From assembly GCF_007846085.1 (NCBI RefSeq), contig NZ_VOEJ01000001.1, positions 248,001-312,000 on the forward strand: a stretch of DNA of 64,000 bases, read 5' to 3'. The stretch's first letter is position 1; each line of letters begins with the position of its first letter. The notes beneath the pieces are model-generated. The model worked only from the letters and a program-made list of their open reading frames with translations. It was not told where the DNA came from and did not search any database. The translations under genes were made by a program, and so were the position numbers. Shown piece by piece: positions 1 to 4,670 of this stretch. Source of the stretch: Mucilaginibacter pallidiroseus. Lineage in GTDB: Bacteria; Bacteroidota; Bacteroidia; Sphingobacteriales; Sphingobacteriaceae.

Positions 1-680
1 TTACCCCAGTGCAAGCCATCGGGCGACTCGGCCAGCCAGATGTAATTACCCCCAATATCCACACTGCTTGGGCGGTGCAGGGCGTAATATTTGCCGTTTA
101 TCTTTTCTTCGAAAATGGCAACATCCTTGTTATGGGGGGGCAATATCATACCGTGATTTTCGAATGTTTTGAAGTCGGTAGTAGTGCGCATGCCTACGCC
201 TACACCACTGTCAGATACTGCAGTAAAGGTTAGGTAAAACTTATCTTCCAGTTTTGTCACGCGGCAATCTTCTATACCGAATGTTTGCAAGGGCCCTTTA
301 CCAAAAAGTTTTTGATAACCTTCCGGCTCATGAAAGTTTACGCCGTCTTCGCTGCAAAGCAATCGTAGGTGCGATAGGGTGGTAAGATAATCTACCCCTT
401 TATAGCGTACCACACGCGCATCTGTTGCAATTAGGTCTGCATCGTTCAGCGCAATTTCCATTATTTGCGTTTTGCCGGTTTCAGTGAGTATAGGAAATGA
501 TACGTGTATTTCAGATTGTGCAGGCCGCTCAGCTACGCGAAGCAATAGCCAGGTTTTTCCTTCAAATTTAAAAGCGCCGGGGTTGAGCAGGCAGGCAATT
601 TGAAGCCCATCTACCGTTGGCTTTAAATCTTTAGGGGAAAGTAAGGGGTTTTGAGGGAAACGTTTTGCTATATCTGCCAT
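1..680 (-). CDS. GH130 family beta-mannoside phosphorylase/hydrolase, truncated at window edge
   Basis: About 226 N-terminal residues are visible; the rest lies beyond base 1. No signal peptide is seen, so the enzyme is probably cytoplasmic. The translation has the GH130 five-bladed propeller pattern: an N-terminal NPLLSP segment, LNPGAFKF, then FGIEDCRVTKLEDKFYLTFT, which corresponds to the family G-I/V-E-D-P-R-V motif carrying the catalytic Asp, with Cys in place of the usual Pro. The segment KYYALHRPSS is also typical. Known GH130 enzymes phosphorolyse or hydrolyse beta-mannosides, including Man-beta-1,4-GlcNAc from the N-glycan core. That would suit the GH29/GH2/GH20/GH92 operon about 25 kb away, but the subfamily cannot be fixed from this half. 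The start at 680 is the first ATG; the Hint gene upstream ends 74 bp away on the same strand. Confidence 0.8.
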   Translation of the reverse strand, partial: MADIAKRFPQNPLLSPKDLKPTVDGLQIACLLNPGAFKFEGKTWLLLRVAERPAQSEIHVSFPILTETGKTQIMEIALNDADLIATDARVVRYKGVDYLTTLSHLRLLCSEDGVNFHEPEGYQKLFGKGPLQTFGIEDCRVTKLEDKFYLTFTAVSDSGVGVGMRTTTDFKTFENHGMILPPHNKDVAIFEEKINGKYYALHRPSSVDIGGNYIWLAESPDGLHWG

Positions 681-754: not shown

Positions 755-1747
755 TTACTTCTGCATAACCATAACGCCATTCATCATAAAAGTGCTGCCG
801 CCGTCGGCTACAATGTTGTAAACCTTTTGGTTACCGCCTACATGTTCATTCTTAATAAGGACAGTGAATGGCTCATACTTGCCTGTTTGCTCGTTAAAGC
901 AAAGCACATCCTGACCTATTTCTACTTCACCGATTTTTTTATTGCCTTGTTTGGTCATCATCGGGTGGTTAGGTGTAGCCTGCAAAACTTTACTGTTAAG
1001 CAATACATTATGGCCATATGCAGTCAGTTCGTCATGCGCTGATACAAGCACCAGCTTAGTTAAAGCATAATTTTTAGGCTCGTGCGTGGTGAGCTCTTTT
1101 ACCTTTACAGTTGTTGCCTGTTTTGTGGCAGGGTCAACGGTAACAACCTCGTCGCCGGGCATGACATCTTTGAGCAACTTTTTACCACCGTTGGCCATTG
1201 CAACAACCTCAGTACCCGGGAAACAAATATCGTTGCCATAAGTGGCCGACTCTTCTTTCATATCCTTGCCGCCATTCAGCAATTTGTATTGCATAAAGCT
1301 AAACTCTTTTGACAGCACATACGATAGCTTTAGAATGAAATTGGTTTCAATCTTGTTGATGTTGTCAATATCTTCAAAATACTTTTCCCATACTTTACCA
1401 TCGGCGGTAAAGTTAGGTACAAGGGTTTTATAGATCTTGCCCTTCTCGTTGGTGTAAAACACCATGGTGCCAAGCTCCTGCATGCCTTCCTTTGCAACGA
1501 GTTTATACAAGTCGATACGTTTTTTTAAGCCATCGCTGCCCGTGATAAAGTAAGGTTTGCGACCTTCATAACGGTCAAGTATATAAACGTTCTCGAACTT
1601 TACGTAGGTATCCTTGTCCAGGTCGCCAATGCTGAATGTTTGTGCCTTTGTGTATTCGGCCATAGTAAGCGGCCTCGGGTTTACGGTTTGGGCATTTCCC
1701 AGGTATATCGTTCCCGCTAAAATTAAAGTAAGTGTAAATTTGCGCAT
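755..1747 (-). CDS. Secreted Hint-domain (hedgehog/intein-type) protein
   Basis: A 330-residue protein with an N-terminal signal peptide (about residues 1-19, ending GNAQ). Residues 21-174 form a region I do not recognise. Residues 175-330 look like a Hint domain: CFPGTEV begins with the candidate nucleophile Cys175; VMPGDEVVTVD follows at about 195-205; QATPNHPM at 256-263 gives the block-B T-x-x-H (Thr258, His261); and the end reads ADGGSTFMMNGVMVMQK. In Hint domains the Cys performs an N-to-S acyl shift. The C-terminal His-Asn pair used by inteins for Asn cyclisation is absent here (Met-Gln at that place), and no C-extein follows. I infer possible hedgehog-like cleavage or tethering of the N-terminal domain rather than splicing. 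It lies 136 bp downstream of the aminotransferase gene on the same strand. The biological role is unknown. Confidence 0.75.
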   Translation of the reverse strand: MRKFTLTLILAGTIYLGNAQTVNPRPLTMAEYTKAQTFSIGDLDKDTYVKFENVYILDRYEGRKPYFITGSDGLKKRIDLYKLVAKEGMQELGTMVFYTNEKGKIYKTLVPNFTADGKVWEKYFEDIDNINKIETNFILKLSYVLSKEFSFMQYKLLNGGKDMKEESATYGNDICFPGTEVVAMANGGKKLLKDVMPGDEVVTVDPATKQATTVKVKELTTHEPKNYALTKLVLVSAHDELTAYGHNVLLNSKVLQATPNHPMMTKQGNKKIGEVEIGQDVLCFNEQTGKYEPFTVLIKNEHVGGNQKVYNIVADGGSTFMMNGVMVMQK

Positions 1748-1883: not shown

Positions 1884-3053
1884 TCAAGATATTTCCTTAA
1901 ATGCAGCAGCAAAGGCTTCCATTTCATCCATGCGGCCAATGCTCACACGGCACCAGTCTTTGTCGTTAAATTTCCAGTTGCGGATGCCCACGCCGCGTTT
2001 CATCATCTCGGCAGAGAATTTTTGCCCGTCCATTTTTAGGGGAAACATTACAAAATTGGCCGACGACGGGATGTATTCATAGCCTTCTTTTTTCAATACA
2101 GCATACAAATACTCTTTCGATGCGTTCGTTTTCTTCAATGCATCGGCCAGAAAAGCTTCCTCGCGATAGGCAGCATTAGCAGCCGCTAAAGTTGGTGCGC
2201 TTACGCCAAAGCCACCGCTCGAGTATCTTTTAAGCTGCTTAATAGTATCTGGCTGGGCAATTGCATAGCCAAGGCGCAGGCCTGCAAAACCATACAGCTT
2301 TGAAAATGTACGAGCGATAATGATGTTGTTACCGGCCTTAATCTGGCTTATCATGCTGGCAGCCTGTGCGTCAGGCATGTAGTCGATATAGGCTTCATCA
2401 ACAAATACCATTGTTTTTTTGGATACCCGCTCACAAAACGATTTAAGTTTGGCCGTGTCGACAACGGTTGCAGTTGGGTTGTTGGGGTTGCATATATATA
2501 CAAGGCCCGTCTTGTCGTCAACCATAGCTTCCATGGCATCAAGGTCGAGTTTATAATCTGCAGTAAGCGGCACCTTTATCCATTTGCTTTCAAAATCCTC
2601 AGCATAGCTCGGCAGATCATCGTATGAGGGATCGCCGCTAATTACGCTTTTGCCACCTTTTGTATATAAGAGCGCCGCGGCGTGTAGTAACGGGGTAGAG
2701 CCCGCATCAACAACAATGGTGCGTTGGGAAATGCCTTCGTACTTGGCAATCTTTCCGGTTAGGTCTGATACTGACCTGAAAGGGTACTGATAGCTCAGGG
2801 CCATAGCATCTGTCATGGCTTTTTTCGCCGCTTCAGAAGGGCCAAAAGGATTTTCGTTTGCCAGCAAACGGGCTTTCATTTCAAACGGCGCTGTCGTTAA
2901 TGCTTCAGTATCAGTTAAGGCACGTGGCGATTTTTTAAATACCCGTGCAGGCATAGCGGCCAGTTTGTTTATAGTGCCCGAACAGAATGCCAGTCCTCCT
3001 GCTACAAAAGCGCTGGATCTGATCCAGTTTCTGCGGTTAATTGTGTTTGCCAT
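1884..3053 (-). CDS. Tat-exported PLP aminotransferase, HisC-like (class I/II)
   Basis: A 389-residue fold-type I aminotransferase related to histidinol-phosphate aminotransferase. The N-terminus (NRRNWIRSSAFVAGG, residues 6-20) is a twin-arginine signal with a hydrophobic stretch, so export with the cofactor already bound is likely. The catalytic set is intact: LANENPFGPS near 64-73, CNPNNPT at 188-194, DEAYIDY at 219-225 and the PLP-binding Lys252 in RTFSKLYGFAGLRLGY. True HisC proteins are cytoplasmic, and no other his genes are near, so I do not call it hisC. The flavin amine oxidase gene ends 33 bp upstream on the same strand, so the two are probably co-transcribed, oxidase first. The shared substrate is not evident. 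ATG start at 3053 is the only start that includes the whole Tat motif. Confidence 0.85.
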   Translation of the reverse strand: MANTINRRNWIRSSAFVAGGLAFCSGTINKLAAMPARVFKKSPRALTDTEALTTAPFEMKARLLANENPFGPSEAAKKAMTDAMALSYQYPFRSVSDLTGKIAKYEGISQRTIVVDAGSTPLLHAAALLYTKGGKSVISGDPSYDDLPSYAEDFESKWIKVPLTADYKLDLDAMEAMVDDKTGLVYICNPNNPTATVVDTAKLKSFCERVSKKTMVFVDEAYIDYMPDAQAASMISQIKAGNNIIIARTFSKLYGFAGLRLGYAIAQPDTIKQLKRYSSGGFGVSAPTLAAANAAYREEAFLADALKKTNASKEYLYAVLKKEGYEYIPSSANFVMFPLKMDGQKFSAEMMKRGVGIRNWKFNDKDWCRVSIGRMDEMEAFAAAFKEIS

Positions 3054-3086: not shown

Positions 3087-4670
3087 TTATTTTGGAGCGG
3101 GGTAATTGGAGCGCTGCTCGTTTACGCGTGCATGTATTGCCGCAACTGTATACCGTGCCGACTCAAAAGCGCCTGCCATCCAGGCATTTAAGTAAGTTAA
3201 ATGTTCTCCTGCAAAATACACATTCTTATCCGGCTTAGTTAAAACAGGGTATTGGTTTTTACGCGTTTCGGTACCATAAACGGCCCAGCCGCCCATGTTA
3301 TACTTAGTTTTATGCCAGCTTACCGAAAATGAGTTTTCAAACTCCTTATCGTATTGCGGGTGTATCAAGCGGCCTTTTTCCAAAGCAAATTTTTCCCGGT
3401 CCGCGTAAGTAAGAGCGCCAATCTTTTCGGCCTTTTCATTAAAGTTGTAATAGCCTATCAATATGCCCTTTTTGCCAAGGTAATCATACGATGGATAGAA
3501 GATCTGCGTCAAATCATTATTGGTGTGCGTTATTCCGCCATATATGTGCTCGTCTTCTTCCCAAAATCGGCGTTTAAACTGCAGGCCTATCTTTCCTGTT
3601 TTGTTATATTCAATATAATCGATTGCACGGCTTACATCGCCCGAAAAATTATTGCTAATGTTACTTAAAACAGGCAAAGGCAAGGTGCAAATACAAAGGT
3701 CGGCGTTAATTACCTGCTGGCCTTTGGCATCCTTGTAAGTGATTTTGACACCTTCTGGCAGGTTTGTAATGTCGGTAACCTCGGCGCCTGTTTTAATTGA
3801 CTGAGCTACCTTTTGCTCGAGCGCATGGGCAATCATATCCATGCCACCCACTGCCTGGAACATTGTCATCTGCAGTTCGTATGTATACTCTGCCACATTA
3901 TAAAAATCAGGATCCATCAGTCCCGAGTGTATCAGGTCGGCCAATTTATGCGCTTCGCCTATTTTACCGGGATGGTCGGCAGCGCCATACAGCTCACTAT
4001 AGCCGCGCCTGGCCGATGCTTTATATAATTTGTCAACATCTAAACCGCCTTCGGCTTTCAAATATTCGATTATTTTTTCGCCGTCTTCTTTGGTAAGGCT
4101 GCTATCGAGGGCACCATGATCAATACTTTTGGCCAGCATCTCGGTCATATACCCGCGAATGTCACTATGTACTTCGCGTACACGAATTTTTTTATTTGAC
4201 AGTGGCCCCTTGCCTTCGGCAAAATAAAAAGCACCCTCGTTTACGTTGTTGTATACCTGTATAGGTACTCCAAGCTCTTTGCAATAATGCAGCGTTAGTT
4301 CGTGGTTGTGGGGTATGCGTGACGGGCCTGCGTTGAAGTACTGCCCCTGATCAAAATTTGCTGTGGCAGTTGGTTGGCCGGATTCTGTTTGTGTGCTACC
4401 TTTGCGAATGCTCCAGCAACGGCCTCCGGTACGCTCACGAGCTTCCAGTATGGTACATTTGTAGCCGAGCTTGTTAAGCTCATATGCCGATGCCATGCCC
4501 GCCAAACCTGCACCTAAAATAACAATGTGCTTGCCGTTGCCACTGCCTTCCATATTAAATGCATGGGCAGGTGCGGGGCGTAAAAGTCCTAAAGCAAGCA
4601 TAGCAGGATACGTGCCACCTGCCAGCATTGCGCCTTTACCTAAAAAATCTCTTCGGGTAAGTGTTTTCAA
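3087..4670 (-). CDS. Tat-exported flavin monoamine/L-amino-acid oxidase
   Basis: A 527-residue FAD amine oxidase. The N-terminus has a textbook twin-arginine motif (TRRDFLGKG, residues 5-13) followed by a hydrophobic segment ending AHA near 36. The Rossmann dinucleotide motif is GAGLAGMASAYELNKLGY at 53-70, then LEARERTGGRC at 75-85. The C-terminal FAD signature is VYFAGEHLTYLNAWMAGA. Family enzymes oxidise amino acids or amines to imines with release of hydrogen peroxide; substrate preference cannot be read off. The start is TTG: an in-frame stop lies just upstream and the next ATG would delete the Tat motif. It is first in a two-gene unit with the HisC-like aminotransferase and is divergent from the alpha-galactosidase gene. 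Confidence 0.88.
   Translation of the reverse strand: MKTLTRRDFLGKGAMLAGGTYPAMLALGLLRPAPAHAFNMEGSGNGKHIVILGAGLAGMASAYELNKLGYKCTILEARERTGGRCWSIRKGSTQTESGQPTATANFDQGQYFNAGPSRIPHNHELTLHYCKELGVPIQVYNNVNEGAFYFAEGKGPLSNKKIRVREVHSDIRGYMTEMLAKSIDHGALDSSLTKEDGEKIIEYLKAEGGLDVDKLYKASARRGYSELYGAADHPGKIGEAHKLADLIHSGLMDPDFYNVAEYTYELQMTMFQAVGGMDMIAHALEQKVAQSIKTGAEVTDITNLPEGVKITYKDAKGQQVINADLCICTLPLPVLSNISNNFSGDVSRAIDYIEYNKTGKIGLQFKRRFWEEDEHIYGGITHTNNDLTQIFYPSYDYLGKKGILIGYYNFNEKAEKIGALTYADREKFALEKGRLIHPQYDKEFENSFSVSWHKTKYNMGGWAVYGTETRKNQYPVLTKPDKNVYFAGEHLTYLNAWMAGAFESARYTVAAIHARVNEQRSNYPAPK

Follow-up and report, generated by a model that had tools for sequence, protein, structure and literature searches.

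The 330-residue protein encoded near the start of the window, the 64,000-nt stretch of DNA analysed here, is best explained as a secreted, BIL/Hedgehog-like autoprocessing protein that serves as the substrate-side member of a three-gene module directed to the periplasm, a reading to which we assign a probability of roughly 0.6. The protein joins a signal peptide and a conserved N-terminal domain to a C-terminal Hint domain (Table 1), and its gene travels with those of an L-amino-acid oxidase and an aminotransferase. Judging from the signals, the precursor would be exported by Sec and both partner enzymes by Tat. Once the Hint domain has folded, Cys175 together with Thr258 and His261 would turn the Ile174-Cys175 bond into a thioester, a step that we infer from the strict conservation of machinery known from inteins and Hedgehog. 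The thioester would be resolved without splicing, with His222 probably helping a nucleophile to attack; this could be water or an amine (for example ammonia, an amino acid or the side chain of a lysine), and the product would be the N-terminal domain ending in TYGNDI, either free or conjugated at its C-terminus. The exported oxidase and aminotransferase may produce the amine, keto acid or adduct, or act on it, to go by gene linkage, and the neighboring genes suggest that the nucleophile or the product is an amino acid, an amine or ammonia. Conservation of the active-site residues could also reflect a binding role without cleavage.

Table 1. Features of the Hint protein and its partner enzymes in the window (window positions; roles of residues are predicted)
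Feature	Position	Strand	Details
Hint protein gene	755..1747	minus	330-aa ORF, ATG start; coordinates include the stop codon
Sec-type signal peptide, residues 1-19	1691..1747	minus	read from the sequence: MRKFTLTLILAGTIYLGNA, followed by Q
N-terminal domain, residues 20-174	1226..1690	minus	beta-sheet and two long helices; tail E166..TYGNDI
Hint domain, residues 175-330	758..1225	minus	PF01079; Foldseek matches to 6Y75, 1AT0, 2LWY and inteins
Cys175, N-terminal nucleophile	1223..1225	minus	predicted scissile bond Ile174-Cys175; invariant 72/72, also in L096-L098
His222, position of Hedgehog D46/D303 (second-step base)	1082..1084	minus	invariant 72/72
Thr258-Pro-Asn-His261, block B TxxH	965..976	minus	invariant 72/72
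Blocks F and G, residues 307-330	758..829	minus	ends M328-Q329-K330 = G:6, G:7, +1
PLP aminotransferase, HisC-like	1884..3053	minus	PF00155 E 8e-51; 4R2N/3LY1; Tat-type signal NRRNWI; PLP Lys252
FAD L-amino-acid oxidase	3087..4670	minus	PF01593 E 7e-56; Tat-type signal TRRDFLGK; R118, Y407 conserved

The initial annotation had proposed a Hint fold and suggested structure prediction as a check, and the fold is borne out. The protein matches the Pfam Hint family PF01079 with 36 bits (E 7e-9; Pfam cut-off 29.7), all 40 Hint domains of one alignment match the same family, and the closest sequence match in the PDB is Sonic hedgehog, across the CFPG motif. An AF2 model built on the alignment has a mean pLDDT of 88 and contains two domains separated by a flexible linker near residues 165-167; its best Foldseek match in the PDB is Tetrahymena BIL2 (6Y75, E 1.3e-9), and further matches are inteins, the Clostridium thermocellum BIL domain 2LWY, Hedgehog 1AT0 and the D46H mutant of the latter, 6TYY. 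Taken together, the profile score, the 40 of 40 matched domains and the structural matches argue that the Hint assignment is not due to chance. A match to an AI-designed TIM barrel (7MCD) in the HMM alignment was rejected as a repeat artefact. The Hint domain does not appear to belong to the PT-HINT type: PF07591 is absent among the protein's own Pfam matches, no domain follows the Hint domain, and a profile search of the protein's own genome gave no PF07591 match. A plasmid search with the Hint protein also returned no match. The residues named in the initial annotation, namely Cys175 in CFPGTEV, the T-x-x-H at 258-261 (T258-P-N-H261) and the Met-Gln at 328-329, all lie in the reading frame at the positions given there, with the stop codon directly after Lys330. 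Signal cleavage probably falls between NA and Q, as the sequence reads, and the signal ends in AxA before Q, or something like it, in many homologues.

A search for related loci with the Hint protein yielded 60 loci, and a six-frame search of genomes found it in 33 of 150 relatives; it occurs, together with the enzymes, in sporadic genomes of several Bacteroidota families and neighboring lineages. All conservation counts refer to an alignment of 72 non-redundant full-length proteins. The seeds of the contig scan include NHPMMTKQ and MMNGVMVM and may favor members conserved at these places, but the six-frame genome searches, which are free of this seed bias, agree with the contig scan on conservation. 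In the Hint domain, C175, F176, P177, G178, H222, T258, P259, N260, H261 and P262 are identical in all 72 proteins, as are Q307, V309, Y310, Q329 and K330. Because Cys175, His222 and the TPNHP stretch at 258-262 are invariant, the N-terminal reaction centre appears to be under selection, and its description as intact holds for Cys175, Thr258 and His261 in 72 of 72 members. Three more distant proteins recovered by profile search at about 30% identity (L096-L098) retain the first Cys, a His corresponding to His222, TxxHP and the Lys at the end. The second Cys of the Hint domain, C283, is Cys in 68 and Ser in four of the 72; as a class-3-type nucleophile it was dropped, since its position is not F:4 and L096-L098 lack it. 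In two loci (L034 and L082) the Hint reading frame looks frame-shifted or truncated, with an early stop at 237 aa or a shifted C-terminus, perhaps through sequencing error or decay.

A further conserved residue of the Hint domain is His222. Positions 1-48 of the Hint profile align with residues 1-46 of 6TYY, which places His222 on residue 46; against wild-type 1AT0, the profile match ends at 37. In Hedgehog, D303 (D46) deprotonates cholesterol for the second step, and the D46H/D303H variant stays active with His serving as the base (PMC9163320). BIL2, the Hint domain of 8W20 and other bacterial Hints also carry a His aligned at the place of His222, so a His at position 46 is not specific to Hedgehog, and its presence, shared as it is with BIL-type domains, does not establish that the thioester is passed to an outside nucleophile. 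The earlier label "hedgehog-like" stands in part: His222 at the position of the second-step base speaks for it, and a sterol-recognition region is lacking. The C-terminus is of a non-splicing type.

The C-terminal end departs from that of inteins. An HMM alignment to the Mtu RecA intein sets residue 328 at G:6 (intein His), Gln329 at G:7 (intein Asn) and Lys330 at +1. Across the 72 homologues, G:6 is M, L, R or K and the block G His of inteins is absent, the F:13 His is replaced, mostly by S, T or N, and F:4 is Asn or Ser. With both of these His residues missing, efficient cyclisation is unlikely. Some inteins are documented to have Gln, Asp or Glu as an alternative at G:7 (PMC4031507), and the Gln329 equivalents of L096, L097 and L098 are Asp, Glu and Asp. 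The chain ends exactly at the Lys in 61 of the 72 proteins and one to four residues beyond it in the other 11. Three other Hint proteins from the same search (L100, L102 and L103) end in His-Asn, which indicates that the Lys ending marks this Hint group. The C-terminus had been described as a lost reaction centre; this is right for the two assisting His residues, but G:7 holds an alternative known to function in some inteins and +1 an invariant Lys, and the end is not decayed, Gln329 taking the place of the intein Asn and Lys330 that of the +1 residue. No sterol or adduct recognition region was found in any of the 72, whose chains stop zero to four residues past block G, and the proposal that the N-terminal domain might be lipid tethered finds no support. 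The Lys ending also occurs outside the present architecture: two loci (L099, contig G309:C1, ORF 280-1977 on the plus strand, and L140) encode a Q-rich secreted protein whose N-terminal region is unrelated and which carries a Lys-ending Hint domain (VGAK; Ala-Lys as the end of L099), and neither has oxidase or aminotransferase neighbors.

The secreted N-terminal domain is, as had been supposed, of an unrecognised kind. Following its Sec-type signal, the copy in the window has no Pfam match at E<=1, and a fold search against the PDB and BFVD gave no match at E<=0.001; modelled alone by AF2, the domain reaches pLDDT 89.8 and pTM 0.85. The N-domains of other members gave scattered, inconsistent and weak Pfam matches (best E 0.002). 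Similarly scattered and weak fold matches to deformylase and endonuclease V were dropped for TM<0.3. The domain has many residues invariant in the 72 proteins: Y32, D44, Y48, K50, P65, T69, G70, D72, K76, R77, D79 and Y81; G93, Y98, T99, E101, P111, W120, YF123-124 and DI126-127; and LKLSY139-143, S146, E148, T169, Y170 and I174. Among 395 genomes of the phylum it was never found without Hint, being fused to it in 11 of the 11 genomes that have it, and in this it is unlike an extein that also occurs without its intein.

Fifty loci, the window's own among them, have sufficient flanking sequence, and in every one the gene order is oxidase-aminotransferase-Hint, both enzyme genes preceding the Hint gene on its strand with gaps that are mostly short; the next commonest neighbor family beside the module occurs in 7 of 50. 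A loose twin-Arg pattern, counted on the oxidase and aminotransferase copies, gave 48 RR and 2 RK of 50, and 48 RR and 3 RK of 52. Within the genus set (G000-G036) the same 15 genomes carry all three genes, and the sole mismatch in co-occurrence across G000-G054 is G038, where the oxidase is found at the edge of a contig. More distant relatives retain the aminotransferase: L137 and L138 carry the complete set in the order aminotransferase-oxidase-Hint. A third divergent locus (L139) has aminotransferase-Hint alone, the only oxidase of that genome being elsewhere and 28% identical, which indicates that the module does not depend strictly on both enzymes. Pairwise divergences of the three proteins correlate (r 0.86-0.91; 0 of 1000 permutations), a pattern that fits joint inheritance but ordinary shared ancestry too, and that would also arise from three proteins sharing a pathway without contact. 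The linkage to the oxidase and aminotransferase and the invariant +1 Lys, neither of them remarked on in the initial annotation, point to nitrogen chemistry, of an amine or amino acid, rather than sterol chemistry. In the collection of papers searched, which did not extend to subscription literature, none joins Hint domains with L-amino-acid oxidases, and those on Hint and Bacteroidetes look irrelevant by title and abstract. These data point to an undescribed three-gene module, and the protein itself would be a Hint/BIL-type protein with altered features, of which we did not find the operon described. The aminotransferase genes of the module are tandemly duplicated in L054 and L141, and L037 possibly has a second aminotransferase directly downstream of its Hint gene.

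How the putative thioester is resolved can be read in several ways. The thioester might simply be hydrolysed, as in BIL domains, freeing the N-domain while the enzymes merely share its pathway or regulon; the fold match to 2LWY and the mainly cleaved products of BIL domains that lack a +1 nucleophile (PMC7664689) make this a credible minority view, but it leaves the invariant Gln329-Lys330 and the very tight linkage to two enzymes unexplained. Alternatively, Lys330 might itself be the resolving nucleophile, its side-chain amine attacking the Cys175 thioester to give an isopeptide-branched protein; should Gln329 then cyclise, the N-domain would leave with an isopeptide-linked Lys. The released Lys would have a free alpha-amine, and in most members a free alpha-carboxyl too, and could be a substrate of the oxidase and aminotransferase. 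This is consistent with the invariance of Lys330, which L096-L099 keep even as Gln329 gives way to D, E or A, with the alignment register that places it at +1, with the acceptance of Q, D and E at the cyclising position (PMC4031507), and with the chemistry of BIL2, the best fold match, which forms an isopeptide bond with the side chain of a Lys (PMC8616854). The missing F:13 and G:6 His residues that assist Asn/Gln cyclisation and the residues beyond Lys in 11 of the 72 members stand against it, and the Lys might be structural, so we consider it unlikely. A more elaborate form, which we regard as a long shot, is ATP-independent tagging, in which the Hint domain, by way of the +1 Lys or an external amine, would put a nitrogen-linked amino-acid group on the C-terminus of a secreted carrier domain of new fold, and the co-exported oxidase and aminotransferase would then act on this bound amino acid.

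Two further readings were weighed. An inactive, degenerate intein retained as a passive domain would account for the missing C-terminal catalytic His residues, but is highly improbable given that the N-terminal centre is invariant even in strongly diverged copies and that no intein-free N-domain turned up among the 395 genomes. These bacteria do not usually contain sterols, and Hedgehog-type transfer of a sterol-like lipid, which the CFPG motif and the base at position 46 would otherwise favor, is scarcely credible for a chain that ends so soon after block G with no region for sterol or adduct recognition.

In bacteria, the Hint domains on record are mostly those of inteins, polymorphic toxins and hypervariable BIL proteins. 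The one described here is tied to one secreted domain that lacks a known fold and to two amino-acid enzymes that are likewise exported. The autoprocessing protein that we favor resembles the Hedgehog Hog domain (Hint plus SRR; 1AT0, 6TYY) in fold (TM 0.80 on 1AT0), in the CFPG nucleophile motif, TxxH, the base at position 46 and the lack of the intein His-Asn, and in having a secreted domain upstream of Hint; it differs in being bacterial, in lacking the sterol-recognition region, in its His for Asp at position 46, and in its Gln-Lys end, unrelated N-domain and enzyme operon. With BIL domains (A/B; 2LWY) it shares the fold (TM 0.82), the Cys nucleophile and an altered C-terminal catalytic end, and cleavage rather than splicing would be expected. 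Its end has no conserved His-Asn, unlike type A, which keeps it; the motif pattern is compatible with type B, with N-terminal motifs kept and the C-terminal motif divergent. BILs sit in the hypervariable parts of variable proteins (PMC7765530); this Hint domain, in contrast, stays with a single conserved N-domain and a single operon. Tetrahymena BIL2 (6Y75), from the BUBL1 polyubiquitin locus, shares the placement of the His between blocks A and B and has, upstream, a domain that might be passed on to Lys, but it lies between two ubiquitin-like domains, whereas the N-domain here matches nothing ubiquitin-like and no domain follows. Class 1 inteins have hosts that also occur intein-free, whereas this N-domain came with Hint in every genome that has it (11/11); nor is there a class 1 C-extein, with His-Asn and a Cys, Ser or Thr at +1, the end being M/L/R/K-Q-K with a C-extein of at most 1-5 residues. 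A secreted bacterial Hint-like group (Buerglin 2008, PMC2362128, Additional file 16), compared by description, likewise joins a Hint-like domain at the C-terminus to an N-region that is conserved, but that N-region has two conserved Cys and the N-domain here none. The locus offers a small system for studying the purpose of a bacterial Hint domain that does not splice, the possible role of the +1 Lys as a nucleophile, and the question of a bacterial, amine-using counterpart of Hedgehog-style thioester transfer.

The partner enzymes are clear homologues of known proteins, the oxidase being closest to the Rhodococcus opacus LAAO 2JAE (E 2e-104) and the aminotransferase matching the HisC-like 4R2N and 3LY1. 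Key residues are retained: the PLP Lys252 of the aminotransferase, and R118 and Y407 of the oxidase, which we take to be the carboxylate-binding residues of LAAO. The two enzymes differ from these relatives in their Tat-type export signals and in their constant linkage to Hint in the examined loci. Directly downstream of the Hint gene, a partial gene on the minus strand (window 1-680) reads like a GH130-type glycoside phosphorylase; it lies next to the module without being conserved there.
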